From a virus, in the IMG/VR virus record IMGVR_UViG_3300008110_000004, positions 124,001 through 188,000 of that record: a stretch of DNA of 64,000 nt; one strand, 5' to 3'. The notes under the pieces are model-generated. The model worked only from the letters and a program-made list of their open reading frames with translations, searched no databases and was not told the DNA's origin. The position numbers and the translations under genes are program-made. The number at the start of each line of letters is the position of its first letter. Position 1 is the first letter of the stretch. Shown piece by piece: positions 16,966 to 46,326 of this stretch.

Positions 16966-17665
16966 AAATTATGCTAATCCAGAAATATCTAATATTTATT
17001 CAAAAACCAAAAGTTTTGAGCTATCGCACGATGATTTAAGACAATCTTTTTTAAATGTTCTTGATAGCGAAATACAGACTGGGGTAGATAGAAGTAACGA
17101 TGCAAGAGGTATGTCTCAGCAGCTGAACTGGCACTCTGCGGTATTGGGAAATTTATGTCACGACAACAGCTCTGGACTAGATGCTGAGTTATTTGTTAGA
17201 TCTTTAGCTGAGTTTGTAACTAGGTTAAAAAATCCAAATACAGCTTTGTGTGGGACAATATGCCATCTAGTTATGGCGGAGATAAAAAAAATTGTTCCAA
17301 ATATTGACTATATAAATACAGTGCACCTAGATTATTTAGAAAAATATTTGAATGAGTCTATCGATAGCAGCAATGTCATCCTAATGCAGGATATTGAAAC
17401 TTCTTCGTTAGATAAGTTTTATGATCTTATTTTTATAGACTTTGAAATATTTAGTCACGATCTGTCTTTAGTAGACAATCTTTGGGCAAAAGTAGCCCCA
17501 AATGGCTTAATGTGTTTATGGAATGTTAATGATTTTCACAAAGTCTATCAAAGAGGCACTGGGCATGCCTGGACTCAATACCTAATGTCATTAACTGAGC
17601 GTGAAGACATGTACACTTTCCACATTCCAATTCTAACAGGATTTACGTTGGTTATTAAAAGATGA
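16958..17665 (+). CDS. Methyltransferase-like protein (divergent Rossmann fold)
   Basis: 235 residues. The C-terminal half has a class I methyltransferase layout: DLIFIDFEIFSHDLSLVDNLWAKVAPNGLMCLWNV, i.e. an acidic strand then a PxG loop and final strand. The N-terminal SAM loop is not obvious, so the assignment is partial. It ends in a 4-bp overlap with the halogenase gene, pointing to a shared pathway. Confidence 0.5.
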   Translation: MSENYANPEISNIYSKTKSFELSHDDLRQSFLNVLDSEIQTGVDRSNDARGMSQQLNWHSAVLGNLCHDNSSGLDAELFVRSLAEFVTRLKNPNTALCGTICHLVMAEIKKIVPNIDYINTVHLDYLEKYLNESIDSSNVILMQDIETSSLDKFYDLIFIDFEIFSHDLSLVDNLWAKVAPNGLMCLWNVNDFHKVYQRGTGHAWTQYLMSLTEREDMYTFHIPILTGFTLVIKR

Positions 17666-30554: not shown

Positions 30555-31289
30555 TTACCGCTTATGTATAAAATCATAAGCTTGTTTTATGTCAATAGAA
30601 AAGTGTTCCGGTGTATTTCCACCAGACTTTAGTATATACATTGGAGAATATGTAACAAGTATTGGCCAGTATCCTAGCCACATAATATTTCCTCTTGACT
30701 CTTTAATTTTTATTTGAGAGCCAAAAAGAACAGAAGCTGGCGTAGAGCCGAGACATAAGATCAACTTAGGATTTAACAATTGAAGCTCTAAATGAAGATA
30801 TGGAGAACAGTTAATTATTTCTTGTTCTTCATACTTTCTTCTTACTGGGCATCTATTTACGTAAGTTAAGCAAAGTTGATCTGAAGAAAATCCAGACTCT
30901 TTAAAAGCGTTAACCATTAACGTTATCGCCTCAGGAGATATAGAAGGTGAGTCAACAACTATAGCAACATCTGGATTTTCAACATTCCATTTTGGCAGCT
31001 CAGGGACAGTATCAATCTTGCATTTTCTACAATTTTTAGTGACAGTATGTAAGTCTTTAATATTTGTAGAAATTTTTCTAGACAAAATATCTACACGAAT
31101 ATCATGAAATAATTGAGTTATTTCAGATATACTCATTCTATTCTCTAAACGAGAATATATTGTAGATAATATGTCTGTTTCGGCAAGTCCTAGATATGCC
31201 TCTGAGCTACCAAATGGATGCTGATTCGGCTTTTGGGCTAACGCACTTTCGATAAGCTTTTGAAGATCTAGCTCATCGAAATCTTCCAT
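30555..31289 (-). CDS. Uracil-DNA glycosylase superfamily protein (family 4-like)
   Basis: 244 residues. Four Cys at C87, C90, C147 and C161 fit the 4Fe-4S site of family 4 enzymes. PKLILCLGSTPASVLFG (about 170-186), ESRG and a late LVTYSPMYIL follow the order of the UDG fold (GxxA helix; HPS-type motif, here YSP). The usual active-site block GEAPG is replaced by VVDSPS, so catalysis on uracil is uncertain. The 1-bp overlap with the ssb gene supports a DNA replication/repair role. Confidence 0.7.
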   Translation of the reverse strand: MEDFDELDLQKLIESALAQKPNQHPFGSSEAYLGLAETDILSTIYSRLENRMSISEITQLFHDIRVDILSRKISTNIKDLHTVTKNCRKCKIDTVPELPKWNVENPDVAIVVDSPSISPEAITLMVNAFKESGFSSDQLCLTYVNRCPVRRKYEEQEIINCSPYLHLELQLLNPKLILCLGSTPASVLFGSQIKIKESRGNIMWLGYWPILVTYSPMYILKSGGNTPEHFSIDIKQAYDFIHKR

Positions 31290-31714
31290 CAGAAGCTCGA
31301 AGGAATAGAAGCGCTAGACTGAGGAGCGGAAGCCTTCGGTGTAGAATCGGAAGAAGTCTTAGCAGATCTACCAGAGTAGGTGAGATGCTCAGCAACTATC
31401 ACGATTCTGGAACGAGCTTGATCGTCCTGCTTCCAACGCTCTTGAACAAGTCTGCCTACAATAGAAATTGTAGAACCCTTCTTGAGCTTGGACTGATCAA
31501 GCTGAGTGCCAACAAAAGAGGCATTCTTGCTAACAAATCCAGAATTATCCTTCAAGTAGTAAACTACATCAAAGTAACCGGAATTGTTATCGGTATCTTT
31601 ATCTGAACCGGAGTAATCGACGCCTATTCTGATCTTGAGTATTTTTCCGTTAACGAGTTCTGGATCTGCGACCAGACCTCCTGTAATATTAATTAAGTTG
31701 TTGGGGTCTATCAT
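31289..31714 (-). CDS. ssb: Single-stranded DNA-binding protein (OB fold)
   Basis: 141 residues. Starts NLINITGGLVADPEL, then IGVDYSG, FDVVYYLKD and GSTISIVGRLVQERW, the strand order of a bacterial-type SSB (ITGRLVxDPEL; GxxVxVxGRL). The tail is Ser/Pro/Ala-rich and ends PSSF, so the terminal Phe is kept but the acidic DDDIPF-type tip is not. It would coat ssDNA in replication. Directly coupled to the UDG-like gene. Confidence 0.8.
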   Translation of the reverse strand: MIDPNNLINITGGLVADPELVNGKILKIRIGVDYSGSDKDTDNNSGYFDVVYYLKDNSGFVSKNASFVGTQLDQSKLKKGSTISIVGRLVQERWKQDDQARSRIVIVAEHLTYSGRSAKTSSDSTPKASAPQSSASIPSSF

Positions 31715-31947
31715 GGTTTCTCCTGTTCATTGGTTTGTATTGCTTTCTCAAAGTGATCGACAATCTGTTTGAGATAATTAACTGATATTGCTACAGCTTT
31801 TTCTGGACCATGTTCCATTATATTATGATTGATCATGGAAACAAATAAATTGTAAATACCAGATTTAAGATCCATAATTATATCAGTAGGAACATAGTCA
31901 GACTGTTCGTCTATCAGAGAATATTTTTGATCTTCGTTTTGCTCCAT
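31711..31947 (-). CDS. Small acidic unknown protein
   Basis: 78 residues; overlaps the ssb start by 4 bp and the upstream stop by 1 bp. Acidic N-terminus, then a helical part (DLKSGIYNLFVSMINHNIM). It could be an SSB partner, given the coupling. Confidence 0.6.
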   Translation of the reverse strand: MEQNEDQKYSLIDEQSDYVPTDIIMDLKSGIYNLFVSMINHNIMEHGPEKAVAISVNYLKQIVDHFEKAIQTNEQEKP

Positions 31948-32243
31948 TATTTAACTCTTTTCGAAAGGGCATTGTCAATCATTTGGCCTAAAGCTTTTAT
32001 ATCATTATAGCCTTTATCATAAAGTATGGATATGATAGGCTTAGGATCAACATGATTATAGGTTATTAGCTGAAGATTGAATATATCGTTAAGAGTATAA
32101 ATTCTATAATTGTTTAAATCTCTACGAGGAGGAGGATACTTTTTATTTTTCTCTCTGTTAGAAACGGTAAGAGTTGTAACATTGAGAATTTGAGCAACCT
32201 CAGATCTTGTAAAGATTGGTTCTGAAGTGTTTATTTTAGTCAA
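31947..32243 (-). CDS. MerR-like helix-turn-helix DNA-binding protein
   Basis: 98 residues from TTG 32243, 10 bases after AAAGG; the longer frame to 32288 has no site. The N-terminal IFTRSEVAQILNVTTLTVSNR is a winged HTH of the MerR/excisionase type, with KKYPPPRRDLNNYRIYTLNDI as the wing. C-terminal helices may dimerise. Lies immediately downstream of the E2-like block and upstream of ssb, so it may regulate this region. Confidence 0.65.
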   Translation of the reverse strand: MTKINTSEPIFTRSEVAQILNVTTLTVSNREKNKKYPPPRRDLNNYRIYTLNDIFNLQLITYNHVDPKPIISILYDKGYNDIKALGQMIDNALSKRVK

Positions 32244-32308
32244 GTTTTTTCTACCTTTATTTATGTTTATATAAATATATAGTAGCAAAAAATAGGAAAT
32301 AATTCAAG

Positions 32309-33442
32309 TCAAATGAGAGAAGAAAGATTCAGAAAAACATCAGACACAGCTTTATCAAAAGATATAGAAACGTCAAAATTTGTATGAGAATTATCTATAA
32401 ATCTTTGGACAGCCTCACTAAAAGTCAAGGGAGGAGACTGAAGTTTTCGAAGATATTTATAGTATTTTGTTTCACTATAATTGTATAAATTGCCAGTTTC
32501 TTCTTGTTCCTGGGAAGAAACACGAACGTCATCTGGATCAATACCATAATAATCAAAATAATCCAAAAGCTTTTCTGTGCCTATGAGCTGTATTTCGGAA
32601 TGAACTCTTTCAGAAATACAAGGATTAGGCCAAGGAATAGAAGAGATATCATTTATAGATATCTTCTCCCAGTTTGAGAAAGCATTCTGTATATAAGAAA
32701 AGTCAATGTAAAAAGTTAGAGGATTTATAGGACCAGGAAGATCATAAAAAGGATTAGTGGAAAAATTAGGATTTTTATGGATCTGGAACAAACATTCAGG
32801 AATATTCATTGTTAAATCAAGATTGGAACCAGAATTCCAAATCCAATTATACGCAGCGTTGATTATTCCCGAAACATTGTTCTCATATCGTGTAATCTCA
32901 TCCATGCTGTCAAACATGGGATTACACAGAGTAGCATTATTATAGAAGTTAAGAAGTGGTGGCAAATACACTTGAGCGGAAGAAAAATCTACACCTTGAA
33001 GTGAATGCGACATAAAATACATGGTTATCTGATTAGGATAATGAACATCATTATATACAGAATAAGAAACTAGATAAACAGTCCAAGGCATTGGAAGTCT
33101 GTATATGTAGTTTTTAGAATTATCATAATCTATATTGTCAACCACAGCTGGTATTACTTGAATATTATGATAAGTAGGAGGACGTTCAAAAATTACAAGT
33201 TTATTATCAACATGAATTAGTCCGGGAGGAACAATTCCAGTATCAGAGTGAATAGTGCCTTTGGTAAAAGCAGTTTGAAGATGTTTAATAATAGGATTAA
33301 TTAAATCTTTTGAAATTGTCGTTTCAGAACCATTAACGTTTAAGCCATTTCTAGAATCTAAAATAGATATTACATCTTCGTAATGAGGATGTTTTATGTT
33401 TGAATAGTTATGAGATGATGAAATATAATTAAAGTTTGACAT
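32309..33442 (-). CDS. Prokaryotic E2 family D-like (PRTRC B-like) protein 1
   Basis: 377 residues from ATG 33442 (AGGA five bases upstream). The core reads LVIFERPPTY...LPMPWTVYL...MYFMSHSL...LPPLLNFYNNATLCNP (about 75-185). This RPP, PWTxY, then P-L-N...(D/N)G...C order is what I know from prokaryotic E2 family D proteins of PRTRC and related ubiquitin-like systems, where the Cys after the loop is the putative thioester site. The downstream half is unique. Family call is from motif order only. Confidence 0.5.
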   Translation of the reverse strand: MSNFNYISSSHNYSNIKHPHYEDVISILDSRNGLNVNGSETTISKDLINPIIKHLQTAFTKGTIHSDTGIVPPGLIHVDNKLVIFERPPTYHNIQVIPAVVDNIDYDNSKNYIYRLPMPWTVYLVSYSVYNDVHYPNQITMYFMSHSLQGVDFSSAQVYLPPLLNFYNNATLCNPMFDSMDEITRYENNVSGIINAAYNWIWNSGSNLDLTMNIPECLFQIHKNPNFSTNPFYDLPGPINPLTFYIDFSYIQNAFSNWEKISINDISSIPWPNPCISERVHSEIQLIGTEKLLDYFDYYGIDPDDVRVSSQEQEETGNLYNYSETKYYKYLRKLQSPPLTFSEAVQRFIDNSHTNFDVSISFDKAVSDVFLNLSSLI

Positions 33443-35012
33443 ATTCATCCTGAGAAATTATTTGATAAGAGGAAGTGGATGAAAGTGGGAGAAAATAATT
33501 ATTATCTGTATAAGCTTTCAACATTTCCAAATACATTTGATGAGGGGTCATTTCAGAGGTAGCAAAATATATAGCGCTATCGGGGTAGTTATAAATGATA
33601 GTGGGATAATTTTGAGAATTTAAAACAGCTTCGTTTATGTCTAAGCCTTTAGAGTATCTTAAAAGATTTCTAAAGTGAGTCATAGGATTGCTATGAGCAG
33701 GAGAATTAGCAAAAATAATATTTTTACTAAAAGAAGTATATTCGGAGAAAATCATATTATCAGCACAAGATTTGTTAATAATTCCACGAATATAATTAGA
33801 GTTTAAAGTGTAAGAAGAAGAGAGTTGTTTGGTAGAAATTTGCTTAAATGTATAAGTATAAGCGGAGAGATGATTGAAATCATTAATAAAGTATATTGAA
33901 TTTTTAGCTTTGGCGGATAAATCTTTAGCAATGATATCATATTCCTCTTGACAAGCTAGAACTTCAGTAAGAGAAAATGTAGAAATGATAGATAAGAAAG
34001 CGTAATGAAAATATTCGTGACCAAGATAACTAAAGAATTTTTTAGCACCGTAGTTTTTGTATACATTATAGATTTTAGTAATTTTATTTAATCCGGACTT
34101 TTCAATTGTTTCAGAGTCAGGAAAAAACAACTTATGCAAATGAGGAATAGTTGAAAATATTTCTGAAGATTTTTCTTTATTTAGCAAAGAACAAAGAATT
34201 GAACTATAGAGATGTGACCAAGGATTCATAAGATCTGAATTCCAAGATCCAGCAAAGAACTCGTTGATCATATAAGAATACATAGAAGCAGGAGTTAGAT
34301 TGCTTTGATCTAAGGGGAGATCATTTAAGCTATTTGAATAACATATTCTTCCATCTTGATAGGTATTGGGAAGAAAAGTCGGATAATAGTTATCTGACAT
34401 TGAAGTCAAAGACTTGTGAGAAAAATACATGTAAGAACTTGAACCAGGATAAAGTGGATTAAAAGAGTAAATAGTCCAAGGTATCCATATTGTTATAGGT
34501 GGAAGCTTTTTCCTGTAGCTACTTGCACCAGATGGTTTATAGTCTACAGTGGCTTGAAAAGGTGGACGCTCAACAAAAATAGTTCCATCAGAAGAAACAT
34601 ATCTAGTAGCAATAGGATAAGAAGAAGTAGGACAAACAGACTGTAAAGATTTAGAATAGTTTTCAGAAAATTTTTCCATAGATATTGAAGCAGAAAGAAC
34701 AGCTTTTGCCTCAATAAAATGAGGAGTGGAATAACAGTAGCCTGAAACAGAATCTATATTTAGTTGTTCAGGAACACTAGAAAAGATTTTGTCTACGGCA
34801 TCGAAGTCATAAGGACCGGAATTGTATGAAAAAAAATCTTTTGGAGTGTAACGATTATCCCATTTGGCAACAGAAGATGCGGAAGAAAAAGCGTAACGAG
34901 AAAGTATAGAACTTTCTCCAAATCCATCGGAGTACTCTATCTGATAAGATGAAAGAGAGTCTGAATTAATAATGCTGTGATCGACATGGGAGTATTGAGA
35001 ATCTAAATACAT
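33429..35012 (-). CDS. Prokaryotic E2 family D-like protein 2
   Basis: 527 residues; its end overlaps the next gene by 14 bp. Same core as protein 1: DGTIFVERPPFQ...ITIWIPWTIYSF...YMYFSHKSL...FLPNTYQDGRICYS (about 152-232). The C-terminal 250 residues are Ser/Tyr-rich and helical with no recognised domain. Clear paralog of protein 1 despite low overall identity, suggesting old duplication and fast divergence. Confidence 0.5.
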   Translation of the reverse strand: MYLDSQYSHVDHSIINSDSLSSYQIEYSDGFGESSILSRYAFSSASSVAKWDNRYTPKDFFSYNSGPYDFDAVDKIFSSVPEQLNIDSVSGYCYSTPHFIEAKAVLSASISMEKFSENYSKSLQSVCPTSSYPIATRYVSSDGTIFVERPPFQATVDYKPSGASSYRKKLPPITIWIPWTIYSFNPLYPGSSSYMYFSHKSLTSMSDNYYPTFLPNTYQDGRICYSNSLNDLPLDQSNLTPASMYSYMINEFFAGSWNSDLMNPWSHLYSSILCSLLNKEKSSEIFSTIPHLHKLFFPDSETIEKSGLNKITKIYNVYKNYGAKKFFSYLGHEYFHYAFLSIISTFSLTEVLACQEEYDIIAKDLSAKAKNSIYFINDFNHLSAYTYTFKQISTKQLSSSYTLNSNYIRGIINKSCADNMIFSEYTSFSKNIIFANSPAHSNPMTHFRNLLRYSKGLDINEAVLNSQNYPTIIYNYPDSAIYFATSEMTPHQMYLEMLKAYTDNNYFLPLSSTSSYQIISQDEYVKL

Positions 35013-35013
35013 T

Positions 35014-36198
35014 TTAACCTACTAAGAGAGAGTTAATATAGCTTTCTTTTTCCAAATCTTTTGTTGAATCAGAAATGTTACTCTTTTCATTTTCTGAAAC
35101 AGTATGAAAGTTAGAAAGATACGGATTGATATACTCATGATATACAGTGGTAGCTTCGGTAAGACACTGGTCATAAGAGTACGAATAAGGATAGACTAAG
35201 ACATTAACATCTTCATTAATGGTATTATTTGTTATAGCAAACATGTGCTTGCCTGAACAGGTTAACGAATATGTCAAAGAAAAATCTATTTCAGAAGAAG
35301 AATGATCTGAAGAAATTTTATTAGATAAAAGTTCAGTTTTTAGAGGAGAGTAAGAAGGGCAGGATGAAAGAGAATTAAAGTTAAAACATTGAGAAGAAGA
35401 TTGAGATAGAACAGGATGAGAACATGAATGCATGCCGCTAACAACATTAGCGTATTTGTAATGAGAAGAAATTACAACAGGTACGGAATTGTCAATAGAT
35501 TGATGAGTGTAATATTCACAGATAGGAAGATCTTTAGGAGTGGGATTATAATTAAAGAACTTCTCTAGAGGAAAAGACCAAGCTATTGAGTCAGGATTTG
35601 TGGGAGACTTGCAGGTGACAGCATAAGATAATTTAACTGAAGTGTATCCTATTGGAAGGGTGGGATTAATAAAATCACCTGCATTTAAATAACTACGATA
35701 CAATTTACTTAAAGTAGGTAGAGCGTGGTTGATGTGAACGTAAGACATGTTACAGAAGAGCTCACCTGAATTGACATAATCTATAACGATAACATTTGGA
35801 GGCAAAGAAGGATCGTGATTAATAAAAAGATTAAGATCAAGAGGTGTGCCTTCGGGAGAAACAAAAGGCTGTATTGTTGTTTTGTATACATTGGAGGAAA
35901 CAGGAACAACTGGATATTCAGACATGGTAATATTTGCCTTTTGAGGATAAGTATATTCGGGTAAAGAAAATAGTTTTTCAGGTTCTGAAAGCTGTTGTAT
36001 GTCAACGTTAACAGATTCAAAAACAAAAGGATTAGAAGTTAAAATCTTCTTTAACTCATCAATACTGTTTTGGGTAACAGATTTTTTTATGTAAGAAGAA
36101 ATAAGTTTATTATATTTTTCGAGGCTTTCTGATGTGAAGCCTTCTGAAGGATAATTTTCGGAAACAGGATGATCTTCAGACATAAATATCAGTACCAA
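35014..36198 (-). CDS. Ser/Tyr-rich unknown protein in E2-like block
   Basis: 394 residues, 1 bp from protein 2. It shares composition and general layout with its two downstream neighbours (N-terminal helices, central NVIVIDYVNSGELFCNMSY...LPTLSKLYRSYLNAGDFINP), but the PWTxY and terminal Cys of the E2-like motif are not clear. A diverged or inactive member of the same family is possible. Confidence 0.6.
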   Translation of the reverse strand: MVLIFMSEDHPVSENYPSEGFTSESLEKYNKLISSYIKKSVTQNSIDELKKILTSNPFVFESVNVDIQQLSEPEKLFSLPEYTYPQKANITMSEYPVVPVSSNVYKTTIQPFVSPEGTPLDLNLFINHDPSLPPNVIVIDYVNSGELFCNMSYVHINHALPTLSKLYRSYLNAGDFINPTLPIGYTSVKLSYAVTCKSPTNPDSIAWSFPLEKFFNYNPTPKDLPICEYYTHQSIDNSVPVVISSHYKYANVVSGMHSCSHPVLSQSSSQCFNFNSLSSCPSYSPLKTELLSNKISSDHSSSEIDFSLTYSLTCSGKHMFAITNNTINEDVNVLVYPYSYSYDQCLTEATTVYHEYINPYLSNFHTVSENEKSNISDSTKDLEKESYINSLLVG

Positions 36199-36731
36199 GT
36201 TATAAGTTTAGAGTTTTGAATTTGAGAAAGAAGATCAGCGTTTTGCTGCTCAAGTTCAAAGCATTTTGACTCTAATGATTTAATGTAATCAATGTAATAT
36301 TGATTATCGGCAGACACATTGGAAAAGTTATCCATGATCTGATTAAGTATTTTAATATTATCTATATTAGAACCGTTGTTGATTGAATCAAATAGTTCTT
36401 CGGTAAATGGTATAAAATGTATGAGAACTATTGATCCAGAAGCTTCACGGATAATATTAAATATCTTTAAGTTGTTATAAAATCTTTTGTAAAGAACGTT
36501 GGGAAGATGAGGATGAACGTTTTTTCTGTAAGAAGTTTTAGAACAAGTATAAAGATAAAAAGGGTATGGAGACTGAGATACTTCATTAATAATAGATGAA
36601 TGAAGGGAATAGGTCTCAGCATAAAGTTGAACATTGTCTTCATTAAGCTTTATGGGATTACCGGAAGATAAAGATGATTCAACATAATTGAAAAGATGAG
36701 TTGAATCATTAAAGCGTTGTATCATGGTCAT
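36189..36731 (-). CDS. Unknown protein
   Basis: 180 residues; starts with ATGA overlap at 36731. A beta-rich segment (GSIVLIHFIPFTEELF) is followed by a C-terminal coiled coil (DYIKSLESKCFELEQQNADLLSQI). In the same transcript as the E2-like genes. Confidence 0.6.
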   Translation of the reverse strand: MTMIQRFNDSTHLFNYVESSLSSGNPIKLNEDNVQLYAETYSLHSSIINEVSQSPYPFYLYTCSKTSYRKNVHPHLPNVLYKRFYNNLKIFNIIREASGSIVLIHFIPFTEELFDSINNGSNIDNIKILNQIMDNFSNVSADNQYYIDYIKSLESKCFELEQQNADLLSQIQNSKLITWY

Positions 36732-37015
36732 GAGTTTACCTCTATGGAATATAGTTCAACTTTACCAGTTTTTATGAACTCTTGAAGAGTAGTTGAAGCT
36801 ACGTGCAAGGACGTGATTGTGGGATAGAAAGACTTAGCCAAAGGATATATTTGGCTAAGATAAGTTATATTTTTTAATATAGTATTAGAATAGTTATCTA
36901 CAAATAAAACGCAAGAAGAATCAGGCGTTTGTATCAGATAGCTTTTCTGAAGCCAAGTTGTTAACGGCTGAGGCAACTCTCGGATTTTCGTCAGCCAAGA
37001 TTCCTTTTGATGCAT
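36728..37015 (-). CDS. Small unknown protein
   Basis: 95 residues if ATG 37015 is used, giving a 95-bp overlap with the upstream gene. A shorter start inside is possible (CTG near 36940), so the N-terminus is uncertain. Content: SSCVLFVDNYSNTILKN and a Thr/Val-rich beta region. Confidence 0.5.
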   Translation of the reverse strand: MHQKESWLTKIRELPQPLTTWLQKSYLIQTPDSSCVLFVDNYSNTILKNITYLSQIYPLAKSFYPTITSLHVASTTLQEFIKTGKVELYSIEVNS

Positions 37016-37307
37016 TCTGCATTACCTCTAGCATTTGTTTGCGCGATTGCTGCAAAGTTTCATGGAAAGCTCTACGAGCCTCATCGGTAGCAAAAGCAAT
37101 CTGACCAACTAAGGCTTCAGTAAAAACTGCTTGCTCACCATAGCTAAGAACAAGTGTGGCGACTTGTTTCTCTATGGCTTCGAGAGATGTTTCAAGGTTT
37201 TTAAGACGGTCTTCAACCTGAGCTGCTAGACCGTTTATAATATCTTGAAAAAATTTTGTAAGAAACTCTGCGGTTGTTTTATCTAGGTATTCGTTGCTAT
37301 CTGTCAT
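36921..37307 (-). CDS. Helical coiled-coil protein
   Basis: 128 residues, 4-bp overlap with the upstream gene. Nearly all helical (VEDRLKNLETSLEAIEKQVATLVL; ARRAFHETLQQSRKQMLEVM). Resembles a small structural or scaffolding coiled coil; could oligomerise a complex. Confidence 0.6.
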   Translation of the reverse strand: MTDSNEYLDKTTAEFLTKFFQDIINGLAAQVEDRLKNLETSLEAIEKQVATLVLSYGEQAVFTEALVGQIAFATDEARRAFHETLQQSRKQMLEVMQNASKGILADENPRVASAVNNLASEKLSDTNA

Positions 37308-37945
37308 ATTTCATACCAATCCTGATTGTTAGTGACATAAGAAACTAAAGATAAGTCCATAAGATATGAAATGGAACAAATATCTTGACGAGTTACCTTA
37401 ATCTGATCAACAGATAAAGGAGACTTCATATCTGGAATAAAAGCTCCACTGTCAGATTTGCGGGCAGCAAAGTGACCGCATTTCCAAACAAAAGCGGTAC
37501 TGTCGTATGACTCACTGGACTGCCAATAGTGTGCTTTAAATATTCTAGATATAGGCTTACCGTCGATAACGGCTCCGCCGTAAGAAACAAAACCTTCGTT
37601 TGTAGGAACGCCCATCTTTTCGTTTTGAGGATAATTAGTTACAGCATTTCCGGTGGCAATAGACTTTAAATAAGCGGAGAAATCTATTGCATCAACAAAA
37701 ACAGCAGTACTGCTAATAAGCTTACCCTCAGGAGAAGTCTTGCCAATATCAATCTTCATCTTCAAAGCTTGATGCCAAGGACGAATAGCTAAAAATCCTG
37801 ATTGAGTCTTAGATCTAAACCACTTTTTATAAAGTTCTTGATGAAATTCTTTATTATCAGAATTCTTCAAAGTATCAGTAGGAGAGCCGTCTTCGTCAAG
37901 AGAAGATAGAAAATCTTCCACATTACTGTAAGCGTTATCAGTCAT
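37304..37945 (-). CDS. Unknown protein upstream of E2-like genes
   Basis: 213 residues. Acidic N-terminus, then a beta-rich core (AIRPWHQALKMKIDIGKTSPEGKLISSTAVFVDAIDF; EGFVSYGGAVIDGKPISRIFK; STAFVWKCGHFAARK). The pattern is single-domain and conserved-looking; no family recognised. Lies between the AAA ATPase and coiled-coil gene of the Ub-like cluster. Confidence 0.65.
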   Translation of the reverse strand: MTDNAYSNVEDFLSSLDEDGSPTDTLKNSDNKEFHQELYKKWFRSKTQSGFLAIRPWHQALKMKIDIGKTSPEGKLISSTAVFVDAIDFSAYLKSIATGNAVTNYPQNEKMGVPTNEGFVSYGGAVIDGKPISRIFKAHYWQSSESYDSTAFVWKCGHFAARKSDSGAFIPDMKSPLSVDQIKVTRQDICSISYLMDLSLVSYVTNNQDWYEI

Positions 37946-37957
37946 TTTTTCTCCTTT

Positions 37958-39562
37958 TTATTTCCATGTTACTGAGGCTGGCTGTTTTTGGGGTGATGTT
38001 TTCGAAAGCATTATTATAGCATCATTCATCTGCTCTGTGGATGCCCAATCCCACTGCTCTAAGGCATACTTGTACATTGAGACAACTGTTTCATTGTGTT
38101 TCATCCATATGATATTCTTCATTTTTGGAGCATAAGTAAGAATATCATTAGTTTCAATGGGTCTTAGGGATTCGGAAACAACATAAAACTTTGTTTCTCT
38201 GATAAGAGAAACTATCTCTGCACCAGTCATATACTGGGTGGCTTGAGCAAGAGAATCATAATCATAAGAATGATCAGTATCAATCTTGGAAAGATGTATT
38301 TGGAAGATGTGTTTGCGCTCTTCAAAAGAAGGTAGACCAACAAACATAATTTTGTCAAAGCGATCAGCACGAAGCATCTCTGGTCTCAAGGAATCAAGAG
38401 AGTTTGCGGCACACAACAAGAAGGTGTCCTCTGGAAGTTCTTGCAAGCCGGTAAGAAACTCGCCATGGACACGATCAGTAGTGCCACCATCTACATGAGA
38501 AGAGCTGGATCCACCGGAAAGGTCACGACCAAACTCGTCAATCCAAACACATAGAGGAGACATAGCTTTAATTTGCTTGAAGACAGAACGCATATTGGCC
38601 TCTGATTGACCAATGAAAGAATTCATCACTTGACTAATGCCGGTTCTGGCAAGATCAAGATCGAGTTCTTTAGCAGTTGCTTGACAGATGGCCGATTTGC
38701 CAGTGCCCGGTACTCCAACCATAAGAAGTCTTCTAATTGGAGTAACACCAAAGGAGGCGGTGCGTTGCTGATCTTTGCGCAACACAGAGGTACGGCGAAT
38801 GATATCTTTAATATTATCAAGGCCACCAATATCAGCAAAAGATATTGCAGGCTTAACTATTTCAAGAATACCATTCTTCTTTATATTGGCCATCTTGACG
38901 TCATAAATATATTTGGGATCAATCTTAGAATGATTGACGACAGACATCAAGCAAAGGTCAATAAATTGAGATTCAGAGAGACCAATGCCAGCGTTCACGA
39001 CATCTTTTATTGAAGTATCAGGTAAAAGACGGTCATGAGCTGCTTCATTGATATGGGTAACAATCGTAGAAAGTTCTTGAGGAGTTGGATAAGAATCTTC
39101 TAAGATTGTAAAAAGATGGGCAAAGTCTTCTGGGCATTCGAGAGCAGAAACAAATATAAACTGCAGAGGCATTGCAGCAATATCGTCAGACCAAAACGCT
39201 GTACGATAAAGAGATTTGAAATGAGAAAGTACAGAAGAATAAGGTGAAATGGCCTCAGCGGGGGAAGAAGGAATATTGACAATATAAGTAGAACGAGTAA
39301 TGGACTTATCTGTCATAAGATAATGTAAGGCTACTTGGGGATCAAATGTAGTTGTGTGAGACTCAGTACTCATATCAGGAAAAGCAGGATTTGGTACAAG
39401 CACAGGTTTCCATTGTCCATCAACAAACTTAGAAAAGCCGTTAACAAAATCTATAGAATAAAAGTTGCGAGATATAGTAGATGTAATGATATCAGTAACT
39501 CTTGAAGGATCAGAAGACTGAATCCAAAGGTTAGGATATCCGAGTTTAATTTTGTCGAACAT
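37958..39562 (-). CDS. Ycf46-like AAA ATPase
   Basis: 534 residues. Residues 1-235 match the order of the Ycf46 N-terminal domain, including GLSESQFIDLCLMSVV and IKKNGILEIV, then a SFADIGGLDNIKDII linker. The AAA core has Walker A GVPGTGKS (283-290), pore-loop region, Walker B CVWIDEFG (338-345), DGGTTDRVHGEFL (358-370) and an arginine-finger region RADRFD (398-403). Ycf46-type ATPases occur in chloroplasts and cyanobacteria with little known function. Here it is encoded in the same run as Ub-like, E1 and JAMM genes, so it may unfold or remodel modified proteins. This link is inference. Confidence 0.85.
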   Translation of the reverse strand: MFDKIKLGYPNLWIQSSDPSRVTDIITSTISRNFYSIDFVNGFSKFVDGQWKPVLVPNPAFPDMSTESHTTTFDPQVALHYLMTDKSITRSTYIVNIPSSPAEAISPYSSVLSHFKSLYRTAFWSDDIAAMPLQFIFVSALECPEDFAHLFTILEDSYPTPQELSTIVTHINEAAHDRLLPDTSIKDVVNAGIGLSESQFIDLCLMSVVNHSKIDPKYIYDVKMANIKKNGILEIVKPAISFADIGGLDNIKDIIRRTSVLRKDQQRTASFGVTPIRRLLMVGVPGTGKSAICQATAKELDLDLARTGISQVMNSFIGQSEANMRSVFKQIKAMSPLCVWIDEFGRDLSGGSSSSHVDGGTTDRVHGEFLTGLQELPEDTFLLCAANSLDSLRPEMLRADRFDKIMFVGLPSFEERKHIFQIHLSKIDTDHSYDYDSLAQATQYMTGAEIVSLIRETKFYVVSESLRPIETNDILTYAPKMKNIIWMKHNETVVSMYKYALEQWDWASTEQMNDAIIMLSKTSPQKQPASVTWK

Positions 39563-39613
39563 TGTCGTATCACCGTAATACTAGTTGTAGGCTTTCTAAA
39601 AAATATAGTGAGT

Positions 39614-39678
39614 GGGGGGAGGGCACTCATAAAGAGTAACCCTCCCCCCGCCGAACAGCGTTATAAAACAGCTGTTCG
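39614..39678 (-). terminator. Two tandem strong hairpins after the Ub-like gene
   Basis: On the - strand an 8-bp hairpin (39652-39659 with 39671-39678) is followed by a perfect 10-bp GC hairpin (39614-39623 with 39640-39649). A TATATTTTTT tract lies about 6 bases further downstream. They sit between the Ub-like gene stop (39690) and the AAA start (39562). They could partly terminate transcription, setting the Ub-like protein at a higher level than the genes below, or mark an RNA processing site. Confidence 0.55.
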
Positions 39679-39689
39679 TAGATGGGTAA

Positions 39690-39944
39690 TCAGCCCTTCT
39701 CGCCAGCACGACGATGGAACTCGACGTTCTGGCCAGGCTGGACTACCGCGTTCTCGTCAAGCTTATCCTTGCCACAGTAGGCGACAGCATCGCTTGGGAT
39801 ACCCCAAATCTTGCTGAACTGCTCGCGGATTTCCTTGATTGACTTACCAGCAATGTTGCTGGGCTGGTTGTAAACACCATAGCGGATATTAGCCATTCCG
39901 GTGGGACGATTTGGCTGAGCTCCGCTGTTGCTTGAGGTTTCCAT
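39690..39944 (-). CDS. Ubiquitin-like beta-grasp protein ending in GEKG
   Basis: 84 residues after TAGGAGATAAC. A 16-residue polar tail precedes ANIRYGVYNQPSNIAGKSIKE (beta1-beta2), IREQFSKIWGIPSDAVAYCGKDKLD (helix and beta3) and VVQPGQNVEFHRRAGEKG (beta4-5 and C-terminus). This follows small beta-grasp proteins such as PRTRC protein C and MoaD/ThiS, and the very end is a free Gly as needed for adenylation by an E1. The gene is 20 bp downstream of the E1-like gene, followed by two strong hairpins. Its base composition is richer in G+C than neighbours, as seen by eye. Confidence 0.7.
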   Translation of the reverse strand: METSSNSGAQPNRPTGMANIRYGVYNQPSNIAGKSIKEIREQFSKIWGIPSDAVAYCGKDKLDENAVVQPGQNVEFHRRAGEKG

Positions 39945-39964
39945 TTTGTTATCTCCTATTTATA

Positions 39965-40729
39965 TTATACGGTAACTGTTTCATTTAGGGCTGAATGCAT
40001 TCTATTGTAGGGTTCAGATTTGCCTATGCCCAAATCGAAGAAGATCTCTGTCTCTTCTGGACTCTGGTTGGACACTATTGTTTTCTGAACTCTACCTAGA
40101 ATGAAAGATGCAACCGCCATGTTAGTGGCAAGAAGCTGTGTTCCACCTTCAATTTCAGAACGCTGTTGGCAGCTGAGTTCACCAGGATTCTTGTCCGGAG
40201 GATTATGATATTCTGGATGGAATTCAGCAGGGTGAGAAGTAATCTCTACGCCGTCACGCTTCTGATAATGATAGATAGAACCAAACAAGGCGTCGTCATT
40301 ACCGCCTGTAAACACATCAATATTATTAAGTTTTGCTGCAGCGTCAAATAAAATCTTTCTTGCAGCAAAATTATCTACAACTGCAAAGACAACATCGTTT
40401 TCTCGAATGAGATCACTTGCTTTAATTTTGGGACTTTCTTCGTCTGCAACACCAGAAAAGTTGTCATCTACAACCCACTTTGCAACAGGGATAATAGTAG
40501 TTTTTGGGAACTGAGGAACTAGCTCAGTAGCTTTAACTACAGCTTTGTTGCCAAGTTTAGTAAAGTCTTGACGTTCTTTATTCTTCTCTTCATATGTGTC
40601 ACCATCTACAATAATGAGAGCAGAATTAGGAAACTTCCATTCAAGAAGACGAACAAGGCCAGCGGCAAGCCAAGTGCCGATGCCTCCAGCTCCAACAAGA
40701 ATAAAACGCTTGCTATCAGTAGGATTCAT
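39965..40729 (-). CDS. ThiF/E1-like adenylyltransferase
   Basis: 254 residues from ATG 40729, overlapping the JAMM gene end by 14 bp. ATP site GAGGIG (13-18), acidic VDGD (41-44), ERQDF with R53/Q54 (E1-type NxxRQ position), and VVDNFAARK with D119. The single Cys (C187, in GELSCQQRSEIEGG) lies where PRTRC ThiF-like enzymes have a conserved Cys and could form the thioester. The family activates the C-terminal Gly of a Ub-like protein by adenylation. Partner is almost certainly the 39690 product. Confidence 0.85.
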   Translation of the reverse strand: MNPTDSKRFILVGAGGIGTWLAAGLVRLLEWKFPNSALIIVDGDTYEEKNKERQDFTKLGNKAVVKATELVPQFPKTTIIPVAKWVVDDNFSGVADEESPKIKASDLIRENDVVFAVVDNFAARKILFDAAAKLNNIDVFTGGNDDALFGSIYHYQKRDGVEITSHPAEFHPEYHNPPDKNPGELSCQQRSEIEGGTQLLATNMAVASFILGRVQKTIVSNQSPEETEIFFDLGIGKSEPYNRMHSALNETVTV

Positions 40730-42416
40730 AAGTATCTCTTTCATAAATATATTCTGAATAAATTGTGCATCCATCAGAAGTTATGGTGTCAGCATAGTGT
40801 TCCGGTTCTTTGTCTTTAGGTGAAGATATGTAATTGACAATTCTGGAAGAATACCTAGGACAAATTGCAGTATAATAATGTTCGCACTTGTAGCAATCAG
40901 AATCTTTTGAGTAAACATCATATTTACCCATAAAATTATCAAAATCAAATGCGTCTAAAGATGTTACTTGAATGGCGCAATAACAATCTTCTTTTTTCTG
41001 AGAGCAGCAAAGAGTAAGTTGCTCATCATTAGTGGGTAGATCTTTATCTAACCATTGGTCCTGCAAATAAGAGCTTATTAGATCTGGGGTAAGTCTAAGA
41101 AGCATAAAGTTGTTTTCTATGTCTTTGGTAAGCATGTAAAGTGCTGCATCCTCAGAGATATTTCTGTCTCGACAGTACTCAGACATGTTATAAACTACTT
41201 GGTCTACTGGCGTGTCCGGTTCACATAAGGGAACGTCACAAAGAGCGCAACAGTGGTCAACATAGATAGAATTAATAGGGACATACGCAAAACAGGATGG
41301 GCAGCTAAACTTGCCTTTTTCGCTAGAAGGGTTTGCTTCGCAAACAAGAACGACTTGATTTTCATATCCTATAGCCTCTTCTATCATATCTAATATATGA
41401 GTAGAATAATTTATGAAACCAATTAATTGAGTATTAGTGCGTCCAGCCGCTGTAGTAGTTTGAGTACGCGCCTGGGGCTGGGGCAGTACCTGTCCATGAA
41501 GATCCGTGCGAGTACCCCCCATATTGGGGGGGCTGACTTTTTTTACTTTATCAGTCCACCCTACAACTTCAGCATCGGGAGCTTTATCAAGTGTGTATCC
41601 TTCAAATACATCTTCGGGATCAAGCTTGTAAGCTTTACCTGCCATCTGCATTTCGATATAATACTGAGTAGCACCGTTGTTAACAGACTTCTGCCAACCA
41701 AAGGTAATATGAATTCCGTCAAAGTCAGCTTGATCAGCGTGATCAGTTCCCGAAGCGTAGGCGCTCATTCCGGGATGACTGTGAACAGATCCAACAATTA
41801 GAACATTGTCAGGCTTAATCTGAGCGATGCTATCTGGATCATAGTTGCAATGAACAGAAGTATTGGTTTGGTCAGGAACGAGAATTCCCCATCCATCAGA
41901 ACCTTCTTTATTCTGATCAAAGGTCAACATGACGATAGACTCAGTGCCGTGCTGAGCCTCTACAAGCCTAAAGAATTGATCAAGCTTATCTATAAGAATA
42001 TAGGGAATTGGTGGCATATCATAGATAGCTTCTTCTTCGACACTAATGAAGTCAGAGCCTAGTTCTGGACGAGCAATAGTTACTGTGCGACCAACAAAAT
42101 TGTTGACAACTCTATAAATTTGAGAAGACTTAACAATAACAGGGGGAGGAGCAACAGTGGCAGTCTTGTTGTTGTTATTGTAAGTAACAGTGCCTGTATT
42201 AGAGGAGGGGGTGTTTGTGGGTTTAATTTCTTTTTCCTCGTTGGCAATAATATAATATATATTAAAACCAAAAGATTCGATGCATTCGCAGATATCAGAT
42301 CTATCTGCTACGAAAGTAGGAAGACCATCAGATGTAATCCAAAGTGGATTAAGGTCTTCTAGTGTAAGATATTCTTCCTCATTTTCTTCGAGAGGAAGAG
42401 TCTGTTGATCGGACAT
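40716..42416 (-). CDS. JAMM/JAB-domain metalloprotease with C-terminal zinc motif
   Basis: 566 residues after TAGGAGAAATA. Residues 125-300 form a JAB domain with all ligands: E159 (GTES), then H212-S-H214-P and S222/D225 in the exact HxHPx6SxxD spacing. Such enzymes cleave isopeptide or peptide bonds after a Ub-like Gly. The N-terminal 120 residues include an Asn/Thr linker; the C-terminal 200 contain a zinc site (CPSC...HCCALC). Together with the E1 and Ub-like genes in direct coupling it should mature or deconjugate the modifier. Confidence 0.88.
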   Translation of the reverse strand: MSDQQTLPLEENEEEYLTLEDLNPLWITSDGLPTFVADRSDICECIESFGFNIYYIIANEEKEIKPTNTPSSNTGTVTYNNNNKTATVAPPPVIVKSSQIYRVVNNFVGRTVTIARPELGSDFISVEEEAIYDMPPIPYILIDKLDQFFRLVEAQHGTESIVMLTFDQNKEGSDGWGILVPDQTNTSVHCNYDPDSIAQIKPDNVLIVGSVHSHPGMSAYASGTDHADQADFDGIHITFGWQKSVNNGATQYYIEMQMAGKAYKLDPEDVFEGYTLDKAPDAEVVGWTDKVKKVSPPNMGGTRTDLHGQVLPQPQARTQTTTAAGRTNTQLIGFINYSTHILDMIEEAIGYENQVVLVCEANPSSEKGKFSCPSCFAYVPINSIYVDHCCALCDVPLCEPDTPVDQVVYNMSEYCRDRNISEDAALYMLTKDIENNFMLLRLTPDLISSYLQDQWLDKDLPTNDEQLTLCCSQKKEDCYCAIQVTSLDAFDFDNFMGKYDVYSKDSDCYKCEHYYTAICPRYSSRIVNYISSPKDKEPEHYADTITSDGCTIYSEYIYERDTYESY

Positions 42417-42470
42417 TATTTCTCCTAAATATTAATATTTCCAGTTATTTGTATATTTATGTTTTTTAAA

Positions 42471-43838
42471 TTAGAAAGGTGATTCATTATCTTGTGCATC
42501 ATCTGCATTTTGGCAGGATTGACATATGCCAGAATATTTTTCGCTCATGATAAAGGTATCAAATTCGGGATGGGTATAATAAATACCATTATCACACTCT
42601 CCACAATATTTATATGATACACCAGGCTCAGATGGTAGATAAATCCACACATCAGAAAGAGACAACCAAAGAACACTGCCACCTTCAGGGTGATGATATT
42701 CGTTAGTATTTATGGCTAAAACATAACCTTCAAAACAAGAATCGCATATGAAAGGTGAATGAGCAGAAGAATTAGGACATATGTCTGTTGTGAAATATTC
42801 TTCACAGTCTTCACAGCTCCAACAGTTTTCTGAATCTTCTTCTTCATCAACGAAAACAGGTGCAGCAGTACTCTGGTTTAGTTTAACGTTTTCAGAATTT
42901 TCAATAACATTGATAACAGGAGGCTGAGTAGTAGAAGAATTGTAAGCCATTTTAAACCAATCAAATACTTTTGCCGCAGGAAGTGTGTAGTCGGAACGAA
43001 GTATTTGATTAACAGGCTTAGGGATTGTTGTATCAGTATAATATGCTTGATAGTTGCCGGAGATGGCATCTGCCAAAGTTAATGGCTGACCATTGGAATA
43101 ATGCTTATCTTGATGGTCGCGATCTTTAACTAAAACTGGAATCCAAATATTAGGATCTAAAGTCCATTCGTATCCATTTTTATCAGAATAGTTTTGCCAT
43201 GCTATAGGATCGTGAAGATGCAACTCTTTACTATTCTCGCGGTAAAATCGAGGGCCATCAGTTTCGCTCATATTCTGATCGTTATAAGCTTCTGTTCCAG
43301 AGCAACGATCAAGAACTTTTGCTAGCTTTTCACCGAAAGGATACTTGGATATATCTTCGTTGTGATACAAACAAATCCAACCAACACCATTGCCACGATA
43401 GCCTTTGCAGTTGATGTTTGGAAGATTAACATGATACAAGGGAGCATGAGGATATGTGATGGGAACTGGGGAATAAAACGTTCTAGCACCATAAATATTG
43501 CCGTCCATAAGATCGGCAATAACTATTCTGTATGGTTGAGCAACATAATATTTTGTGGCATTTTTGTCACCTTCGTATTGTCCCCAGTTAATGTAATACA
43601 TTCCGGGTTTGTGTTGATAAACAATTTGAGTGTGATTGCCAGCAGAACGAAGAGCTAACAAACCTGAGCCATCAACAGGCATGAGACCAGTATCAATGTA
43701 GGAATAGTTAGAAAAAGAAGTGTAAAAAGAAGTCAGATCTTTATCAGTGACATGATCTAAACCAAAAGAATTAACTGAAGAACGGAAAGTAAGATTTCCC
43801 TCTTCAGTGTTAATGAAAGAGTATTGAACGTTGCTCAT
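42471..43838 (-). CDS. E2-like protein with C-terminal Cys-rich (treble-clef/RING-like?) region
   Basis: 455 residues after AAGGATTTAACA. Core: YRIVIADLMDGNIYGARTFYSP...LYHVNLPNINCKGY...GVGWICLYHNED (about 100-165). This fits a divergent E2-like fold, with C156 or nearby as a putative site. The C-terminal 130 residues contain three Cys pairs (CWSCEDC, CDSC, CGEC, CQSC) that probably bind zinc. A fused E2-like and zinc module, encoded beside JAMM and E1, might act as conjugating plus substrate-binding part; the E2 call rests on motif order and context. Confidence 0.45.
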   Translation of the reverse strand: MSNVQYSFINTEEGNLTFRSSVNSFGLDHVTDKDLTSFYTSFSNYSYIDTGLMPVDGSGLLALRSAGNHTQIVYQHKPGMYYINWGQYEGDKNATKYYVAQPYRIVIADLMDGNIYGARTFYSPVPITYPHAPLYHVNLPNINCKGYRGNGVGWICLYHNEDISKYPFGEKLAKVLDRCSGTEAYNDQNMSETDGPRFYRENSKELHLHDPIAWQNYSDKNGYEWTLDPNIWIPVLVKDRDHQDKHYSNGQPLTLADAISGNYQAYYTDTTIPKPVNQILRSDYTLPAAKVFDWFKMAYNSSTTQPPVINVIENSENVKLNQSTAAPVFVDEEEDSENCWSCEDCEEYFTTDICPNSSAHSPFICDSCFEGYVLAINTNEYHHPEGGSVLWLSLSDVWIYLPSEPGVSYKYCGECDNGIYYTHPEFDTFIMSEKYSGICQSCQNADDAQDNESPF

Positions 43839-44526: not shown

Positions 44527-44665
44527 AGTGTTGTGGTGTTACTGTCGTGAAAAAACTGGCTAGTATAATATCAATCTGTTTTTCTGGGGTTTTGTTCTTT
44601 AATCTATTATTAATAACTTTAGCGCTGAGGCCAAGTAAAACAACTGGAAGTATTAAGAGGTGCAT
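44456..44665 (-). CDS. Small protein with N-terminal membrane helix
   Basis: 69 residues: hydrophobic start (LLILPVVLLGLSAKVI) then a polar helix. Overlaps the protease gene by 13 bp, so coupled to it. Possibly an accessory of the membrane protease. Confidence 0.55.
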   Translation of the reverse strand: MHLLILPVVLLGLSAKVINNRLKNKTPEKQIDIILASFFTTVTPQHFGEFNEDIKDEIETSTRKRENSY

Positions 44666-45114
44666 AATGCAATATTCCTTTTTGCGGATCGGTATTTTGC
44701 GCCATCAGTTCCTACAAAATTTAGGAAAAGTTCACTAAGAGCTAATATACCGAGACCTAGTGTATTGGTGAAGTTAAAAATAATATTTAAAAGGAACAAA
44801 GTAAAAGCGGTTAAGAATCCTACGATAGGACCCGAAAGAGCAACTTTTATTTTTGACTCATTGGATAAACCAGGAGCCTTAACAAATGCTACAGCAAATA
44901 ATGGAAATGGAATAAAAATAGGCAATGATGCTTTAGAGCCAAGTTTTCTGGCCATAAAATAGTGAGATATCTCATGAGCAAAAAGAACTAGTATGGCAAA
45001 GAAAACAAAAGAACTATGAACTATAGAGTAGTTGATTGCAGCTACAGCAGATGCGCTAGCTATAGTCCATGTGATTTTTGGTATCTTACGAAAAAAAGAT
45101 TTTATCTTGTTCAT
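44653..45114 (-). CDS. Site-2-protease-type (M50) membrane metalloprotease
   Basis: 153 residues, short for the family. A transmembrane helix carries the zinc motif HEISH (47-51). A downstream FVGTDGAKYR segment (D137) matches the LDG-type third ligand. Four hydrophobic helices in all. Site-2 proteases cut proteins inside the membrane, commonly to release regulators such as sigma factors; Ub-like or WhiB neighbours may be targets but nothing here shows it. Confidence 0.75.
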   Translation of the reverse strand: MNKIKSFFRKIPKITWTIASASAVAAINYSIVHSSFVFFAILVLFAHEISHYFMARKLGSKASLPIFIPFPLFAVAFVKAPGLSNESKIKVALSGPIVGFLTAFTLFLLNIIFNFTNTLGLGILALSELFLNFVGTDGAKYRSAKRNIALCTS

Positions 45115-45884
45115 TTATTGACCACAAGGTTGAAGGGAATATTGTAGAAATCGGCAATGTCTTTGAGAAGACCATCGTTTGCCATATCAATAAATGCATT
45201 AGCATACATAGTAGATAGGTGTTCATCTGAAACAGATTCGTTAAGTTGAACCAAAAACTTATCTGGATCAGTAATGTAAGTATCATCAATCAAATCTTGA
45301 TTAATAGGAAGGTTAAGCTTTTCGCCCAAATGCTTGTAAATTAGTCTGTCAACATTTAAGCAAAAGAGTGAAATGTTGACACTGGAAAGATAGAATGTTT
45401 TAACATGATCAAAAGAATATTCCATTTTAAGAATATCAAAAAGTTCTTTGAGAACATTTTCGTCAGGATCAGTACTAGAAAAAATTTTGTTCATCATTGA
45501 AAGATAACGAAGTCTTTGAAGTATAAGAGCTTCTTTATGATTGAACATTTGAATTTTAGAAAAGTCTCCATTGGTTAAAGTATTGAGAACAATGGAGATA
45601 GATTTCATGTAAGAAGGAGCCTGAATCTTTTGATAATAAGCTGCAGTAGCCTCATGGAAGCTAGCAGCAAGCTTTACCTTTTGTTCGTCAATAGGAGAAT
45701 TATTATCTAAAGAAATTTCATCTACAAATTTCTTAGCAGAAGAAATAAAATCTTCTACATTTTTATTTCTATTGGAAGATGATGGAGCGTAAGCTTCAGA
45801 TTGGAGTGAAACAGAAGAGGTATCTTCAGTATCTGTTTCTGGATCATAATCAAAAAGATCATCATCATTCTGAGGGTGATTCAT
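45111..45884 (-). CDS. Unknown acidic helical protein
   Basis: 257 residues from ATG 45884 (AAGAAAG site; the longer frame to 46064 runs against the WhiB gene). Starts with an acidic low-complexity region (NDDDLFDYDPETDTED) and continues helical. Start overlaps the WhiB stop by 20 bp and the end overlaps the protease start by 4 bp. No family recognised. Confidence 0.6.
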   Translation of the reverse strand: MNHPQNDDDLFDYDPETDTEDTSSVSLQSEAYAPSSSNRNKNVEDFISSAKKFVDEISLDNNSPIDEQKVKLAASFHEATAAYYQKIQAPSYMKSISIVLNTLTNGDFSKIQMFNHKEALILQRLRYLSMMNKIFSSTDPDENVLKELFDILKMEYSFDHVKTFYLSSVNISLFCLNVDRLIYKHLGEKLNLPINQDLIDDTYITDPDKFLVQLNESVSDEHLSTMYANAFIDMANDGLLKDIADFYNIPFNLVVNK

Positions 45885-46326
45885 CTTTCTTTGCAGCCTT
45901 TCTGTAGTATCTGCGCTTAGGATTAAGAAGTCTAAAGTTTTCAACTCTGGCCATTTGAACAAACTGTTTAGCTTTTTCAATGGTAAGATTAAGAAGATCG
46001 TTATCAAGATACTGTCTGATGAAATATAAACGCTGGCGATATATCGTGCCACCCCAAACGCCATCGTAATTATATTTCATTGCTTCGTAAAGACAGTCAA
46101 CTTGAACAGGGCAAGCTGTGCACATGCCAATTGCTTTAACAGCAGAAGAAGCAGATTTTCTATCACTGTTGATGGAAAAGAAGTCCTCCATAGTAAGAGA
46201 ACTATTTCTACACAAAGCCTTGTCTCTCCATTGAGAAGTCAAATCATCAAAACATTCATAAATATTGGCAACGTTTTTGGGGGAGCCCCTACGAGAAGTA
46301 ACAGGAGAACCAGGATTAGAAGTCAT
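45865..46326 (-). CDS. WhiB-family iron-sulfur transcription factor
   Basis: 153 residues. WRDKALC with C39, then C69, C72 and C78 (GMCTACPVQVDC) and GVWGG (89-93), followed by a basic-aromatic stretch: the full WhiB signature of four Cys plus G[VI]WGG. WhiB proteins bind a 4Fe-4S cluster and the main sigma factor and occur only in Actinobacteria and their phages, so this gene identifies the host group. The extra C-terminal 55 residues are unusual. Likely controls phage or host transcription. Confidence 0.9.
   Translation of the reverse strand: MTSNPGSPVTSRRGSPKNVANIYECFDDLTSQWRDKALCRNSSLTMEDFFSINSDRKSASSAVKAIGMCTACPVQVDCLYEAMKYNYDGVWGGTIYRQRLYFIRQYLDNDLLNLTIEKAKQFVQMARVENFRLLNPKRRYYRKAAKKDESPSE

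Follow-up and report, generated by a model that had tools for sequence, protein, structure and literature searches.

A probable ubiquitin-like conjugation module with three E2-like proteins in a tailed phage, related to PRTRC-type systems

A run of minus-strand genes at positions 32309–43838 of the window analysed here probably encodes a phage-specific, reversible ubiquitin-like conjugation system. As judged from sequence comparison and predicted folds, it consists of a ubiquitin-like modifier (Ubl), an E1-like activating enzyme, a JAMM metalloprotease and three E2-like proteins, and would be a divergent, multi-E2 relative of the PRTRC-type systems (row 6d of Iyer 2006, PMC1779556). The window is the 64,000-nucleotide stretch 124001–188000 of the 193,906-base IMG/VR virus record IMGVR_UViG_3300008110_000004; its portal, DNA polymerase, tail-fibre and single-strand DNA-binding protein (SSB) genes mark it as part of a tailed phage. 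A sequence-only reading had proposed a full pathway of modification, deconjugation and remodelling. The Ubl, E1, JAMM and three E2-like proteins of that proposal held by family and fold, whereas membership of the remodelling component, an AAA ATPase, could not be established.

Results

The open reading frames (ORFs) named in that reading are all present, with ends that overlap or nearly adjoin and, in most cases, good ribosome-binding sites. In the window's own genome, profile searches found exactly one Ubl, one E1, one JAMM and three E2s. The module is not a chance assembly, given its synteny in dozens of viral contigs, the invariant catalytic residues, the low dN/dS values and the low scores of the controls. 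These controls, run for E2a and the Ubl, were reversed, shuffled and unrelated profiles, all scoring about 2% or less in profile comparisons (hhalign) that set alignments of the viral relatives against PRTRC-type proteins of plasmids and phages.

The putative modifier (39690–39944, minus strand, 84 aa) ends in EFHRRAGEKG. It had been described as a beta-grasp protein with a free terminal glycine, and its AlphaFold2 model is indeed a beta-grasp with a core pLDDT of about 90. When this model was compared with the PDB by Foldseek, the top matches were ubiquitin and its variants, SUMO, NEDD8 and FAT10 (best 2e-4, prob 1.0). The GxKG motif is retained in the Ubl homologues at all 44 loci scanned (43 viral, one contig of a metagenome-assembled genome, MAG), where it is followed by no residue or, in a few relatives, by one or two (SL, NI, SK, LA, C or F). 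These short tails may denote precursors that are trimmed to the functional glycine, as ubiquitin precursors are. PRTRC_C-type proteins often share such ends (AGPKG, AGVKG, and VGTKG ahead of an extension). Against a first set of three PRTRC_C sequences the Ubl scored an uninformative 3%; against 11 PRTRC_C-type sequences it scored 63% (E 7e-5; controls ≤1.5%), a figure that is not independent of the motif since the set was picked for GxKG-like ends. The Ubl profile also scores the tandem Ubl repeats of Bacillus phage KLEB27-3 (1.1e-9 summed), which are themselves TIGR03738 (PRTRC_C) above the cut-off.

The E1-like (ThiF) enzyme (39965–40774, minus strand, 269 aa) carries the expected GAGGIG and VDGD motifs and a single invariant cysteine in GELSCQ, which is C202 of the ORF or, as first noted, C187 when counted from Met16. 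It matches the Pfam ThiF family (PF00899, 1.9e-12) and aligns with PRTRC ThiF over nearly its full length, including the SC motif (99.7%, E 4e-25). The JAMM/JAB metalloprotease (40716–42416, minus strand, 566 aa) has the exact HxHPx6SxxD signature that had been claimed, in the form HSHPx6SxxD, together with an invariant E159 and C-terminal CxxC pairs at 372–393. It matches Prok-JAB (7.5e-6) and, by hhalign, plasmid PRTRC_A (98.2%). Among NCBIfam models, PRTRC_ThiF and PRTRC_A come closest to the two proteins, with scores that fall far short of the cut-offs: E1 reaches 4e-6 with TIGR03736, or 26 bits where 145 are required, and JAMM reaches 2.5e-4 with TIGR03735.

Sulfur metabolism, too, makes use of ThiF, JAMM and small beta-grasp proteins (Iyer 2006, PMC1779556), and ThiF/MoeB-type NCBIfam models weakly match the E1. 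One could thus envisage a sulfur-carrier pathway of the ThiS/MoaD/CysO kind, in which ThiF would thiocarboxylate the Ubl and JAMM would release the product, like the actinobacterial CysO/Mec+ route. We regard this as highly improbable, for the Ubl ends in GxKG rather than GG, three E2-like proteins with an invariant cysteine accompany it, and no sulfurtransferase, rhodanese or cysteine-synthase match was found among the module proteins scanned.

For the conjugation system proposed here, the E2-like proteins are central. A PWTxY...PLN...C order had been noted in several products, and it is seen as P(W/Y)..., (L)PN..., C in E2b (32309–33448, 379 aa), E2c (33429–35012, 527 aa) and E2a (42471–43838, 455 aa), all on the minus strand. 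E2b and E2c score 99.7% with each other, and each aligns its cysteine with that of PRTRC_B (96.7%, E 3e-10 for E2b; 95.9%, E 5e-9 for E2c). In E2b, the residues N167, C175, N209 and D211, the last two forming a downstream N-x-D, are invariant in 32 sequences; in E2c, the putative active cysteine lies in LPNTYQDGRICYS and is likewise followed by N-x-D. Relatives of this pair match Prok-E2_D (PF14460, best 9e-9) and PRTRC_B (TIGR03737, best 1.5e-4). From the profile comparison and the conserved residues, we assign both as E2-like proteins. E2a, of the Prok-E2_D/PRTRC_B type, has an invariant C156 in HVNLPNINCKGYRGNGVGWICLY with Y-N-D (185–187) downstream, and its C-terminus carries zinc-finger-like CxxC pairs that form a possible E3-type part. 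It scores 43% with the first PRTRC_B set and 81% with a larger one, and is the third and last significant E2-profile match in its own genome (2.4e-6). The 35014–36198 product and the 36189 product were considered as further E2s and ruled out by profile comparison (hhalign).

The relation to PRTRC proteins that had been suggested is real for A, B and ThiF by profile, and for C it is indicated by the GxKG end and the ubiquitin fold. Several results nevertheless weigh against the assignment. First, family HMM scans, TIGR03738 included, returned no match for the Ubl, nor any for the window's own E2b and E2c, as opposed to their relatives. Second, the best score of E2a, 96.5% with a merged E2b/E2c and PRTRC_B profile (E 1e-9; controls ≤2.1%), comes from an alignment that ends with the NLPN motif, immediately ahead of C156; it is the weaker 43% alignment that pairs C156 with the PRTRC_B cysteine. 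Third, structure prediction, which succeeded for the Ubl, did not do so for E2a, whose AlphaFold2 model (pLDDT 72) retrieved no E2 when searched against the PDB; the E2 assignment therefore draws on profile evidence together with the conserved residues N..C and, downstream, N-D. Fourth, no separate E3 was recognised. Fifth, no Ubl gene was found within about 6 kb of the relatives of the AAA ATPase in JP1, RcTiptonus, YungJamal and HJ05. PDB sequence searches with the Ubl, E1 and E2b/c profiles gave nothing useful.

The AAA ATPase and the gene that follows it

The classical AAA+ ATPase (37958–39562, minus strand, 534 aa) matches PF00004 (2e-23) and phrog_8638 (3e-65), and among solved structures its AAA domain is closest to the D2 domain of Cdc48/p97 (PDB Cdc48, 3e-55). 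Cdc48/p97 and PAN provide the closest solved AAA domains; the phage protein differs from them in its single AAA domain and its other N-terminal region. It also lacks a C-terminal HbYX, and docking to a proteasome through this end was rejected. The gene is found in every close-family locus whose contig reaches that far. However, AAA relatives occur in many phages, and with the four loci named above, where no Ubl gene was seen nearby, its membership of the Ubl pathway is uncertain.

Directly after it lies a gene for a 213-aa protein (37304–37945, minus strand), conserved in the close-family loci that extend so far and matching no family significantly in Pfam, PHROG and NCBIfam scans. It was rejected as a relative of the genes that follow AAA in other phages.

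Synteny and selection

A scan with the E1 profile found the gene at 48 viral loci, the carriers being a family of large, uncultured viruses of bacteria, and on a 10.4-kb contig of a bacterial MAG; several of the contigs are near-duplicates, and E1 identity within the close family is 50–95%. In the mapped close-family loci, as far as the contigs extend and allowing for a few missed or split genes, one order recurs: g43860, E2a, JAMM, E1, Ubl, AAA, the 37304 family, two further E2s, MerR, SSB and UDG. One locus has an extra E2, and one clade has a few additional genes between Ubl and AAA. In the window, the last three neighbours, all on the minus strand and conserved by synteny, are a MerR-like helix-turn-helix protein (31947–32288; MerR_1 3.9e-4, just below the cut-off), the SSB (31289–31714; PF00436, 9e-7) and a uracil-DNA glycosylase (UDG) superfamily protein (30555–31289; PF03167, 1.6e-12). 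Wherever the contig is long enough to show them, SSB and UDG almost always belong to this run. Two distant loci, L101 and L102 (E1 identity 31–32%), have at least two E2s, JAMM, E1 and Ubl, without the AAA gene; RadC-like ORFs, recognised by eye, lie close by. The 267-kb record IMGVR_UViG_3300042868_009074 holds two divergent copies of the module (L015, L017), which may be two systems in one phage or a chimeric assembly.

The dN/dS ratio is 0.05–0.13 for E1, Ubl, AAA, JAMM and E2a, 0.03–0.06 for the 37304 product, 0.15–0.22 for E2b and 0.37–0.46 for E2c. The values are approximate, as the comparison used two close relatives and dS was often about 1 or higher. Purifying selection on E1, Ubl and AAA is strong.

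Relatives in other phages and on plasmids

A phage-borne system of this kind is not unique to the window, since PRTRC-type genes are partly annotated in the genomes of KLEB27-3 and ME3. Salmonella phage Arash encodes E2, JAMM and E1 proteins and, upstream of their genes, has an unannotated 66-aa Ubl ORF (L047:107–307) ending in RRTGTKG. In KLEB27-3, gp199 (L045:4733–5440) consists of four tandem Ubl repeats, each ending in AGVKG and scoring as PRTRC_C above the cut-off. At the DNA level these repeats differ by 16–21%, yet they encode almost the same protein sequence, a pattern that speaks against an error of assembly; no relatives of this polyUbl were found in viral contigs. Three Ubl-like repeats, each with TGTKG at its end, are present in Vibrio phage D69 (L066:3385–4176), whose E1 gene looks interrupted. 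Two uncultured relatives of Arash have two-repeat Ubl ORFs (L063:4364–4753, L064:4283–4723). Such tandem repeats ending in GxKG, in phages with PRTRC-type E1, E2 and JAB, support the conjugation reading. Arash, KLEB27-3, ME3 and D69 thus share phage-borne Ubl/E2/JAB/E1 cassettes with the window, ME3 being less complete here. Arash, KLEB27-3 and D69 differ in that one E2 was found in each, against three in the window, and no adjacent relative of the window's AAA gene; in KLEB27-3 and D69 the Ubl is repeated, against a single Ubl in the window.

The E1 and E2 homologues of Arash bear the annotation 'structural protein', and a phage-tail Ubl with JAB has been described (Iyer 2006, PMC1779556). 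A role in the virion or its assembly, where the Ubl system would mature structural proteins in the way suggested for TAPI/TAPK of lambda, is nonetheless very unlikely in our estimate: the module lies on the strand opposite to the recognised portal, DNA polymerase and tail-fibre genes and adjoins SSB and UDG.

Relatives are also common on plasmids. On two Gram-positive plasmids, Ubl-like stretches ending in GKKG or KKKG are fused before the JAMM domain (L043:6551–7933, L044:6986–7948). At many of the plasmid loci examined, DnaN, SSB, Rad52, DnaX, Pol III or helicase genes lie within about 12 kb; this association is a lead only, as the loci were a small, hand-picked set with no count of the background, and genes of this sort abound on large plasmids.

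Other genes of the window

Just upstream of the module are genes for an M50 peptidase-like (44653–45114) and a WhiB-like (45865–46326) protein, and the latter suggests an actinobacterial host. Elsewhere, the window encodes a tryptophan halogenase-like protein (17662–19137; phrog_2928, 2.6e-96) and, in a GC-richer stretch, a collagen-like tail fibre of 1394 aa (8546–12730).

Discussion

Several differences separate the module from its nearest known counterparts, PRTRC (TIGR03735 A, TIGR03736 ThiF, TIGR03737 B, TIGR03738 C) and the row 6d operons, which are bacterial and combine Ubl, JAB, E1, E2 and an alpha-helical protein (Iyer 2006, PMC1779556). All share a GxKG-like Ubl end, JAMM, a Prok-E2_D E2 and a ThiF E1, in one gene cluster. 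First, the phage module has three E2s instead of one, adds CxxC domains to E2a and JAMM, has AAA, SSB, UDG and MerR neighbours, and scores under the NCBIfam cut-offs. Second, hhalign comparison with the E and F proteins of plasmid loci found no PRTRC E/F counterparts, and the module proteins that were scanned, a set smaller than the window's full gene complement, gave no match to ParB. Third, row 6d E2s have a conserved histidine downstream of the cysteine, whereas the window's E2s, and likewise phage and Gram-positive relatives, show N-x-D or N-D at about that place when read by eye. In the literature searched, mostly without subscription papers and preprints, we found neither the three-E2 layout nor any phage Ubl conjugation system beyond the tail-assembly Ubl of Iyer 2006, and a term search of the 2021 jumbo-phage survey PMC7824862 gave no mention of one. 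The multi-E2 viral version of the kit thus looks undescribed; kits of this type had been described in bacteria and on plasmids.

The bacterial Ubl systems CBASS Cap2/Cap3, Bil and Bub follow an E1-E2-JAMM logic and act in defence, with E1 and E2 often fused or of other E2 families. The phage module shares that logic, yet a PADLOC scan gave only a weak E1-E2 match confined to the E1 protein (1.5e-5) and a generic AAA match, and found no CBASS/Bil defence-type E1-E2 with partner genes. Ubl conjugation serves anti-phage defence in bacteria (PMC10097602), the E1 bears the weak resemblance just mentioned, and E2b and E2c evolve fast, so the enzymes might modify host immune proteins, or JAMM and E1 might disturb CBASS/Bil-type systems. 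We consider such a counter to, or mimic of, host defence quite unlikely. The long-kept gene order that takes in SSB and UDG, and the strong purifying selection acting on the core genes, fit a standing function of the phage better than a patchy anti-defence gene, and the relatives are common on plasmids, several of them near replication genes.

For the reversible conjugation system that we favour, the following mechanism may be envisaged. E1 would adenylate the terminal glycine of the modifier's GxKG end, with a thioester at C202 as a possible intermediate; the modifier would then pass to the cysteine of one of the three E2-like proteins and on to target amines. The CxxC domain of E2a may serve as a built-in E3-like part, and E2b and E2c, the fastest-evolving parts, may determine target choice. 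JAMM would trim the short-tailed precursors and strip Ubl from targets. In the weakest step, the AAA ATPase may pull modified complexes apart in a Cdc48-like manner. The presence of SSB and UDG in this run hints at a role in replication or repair, and the targets would be proteins that the phage or its host uses in these processes. More boldly, and in our view improbably, the module could constitute a phage ubiquitin-type code, in which one modifier, three E2s each dedicated to its own targets, a deconjugase and a Cdc48-like segregase act on the replisome (SSB or others), as a viral parallel to the control of PCNA by SUMO and ubiquitin with Cdc48.

If active, the module would equip viruses of bacteria with a complete system for both attaching and removing a ubiquitin-like protein, its E2 set enlarged to three, and would offer a compact model of how E2 specificity diversifies. 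Furthermore, through the simpler versions in the cultured phages Arash and KLEB27-3, the long-open function of the plasmid PRTRC-type systems becomes directly testable.

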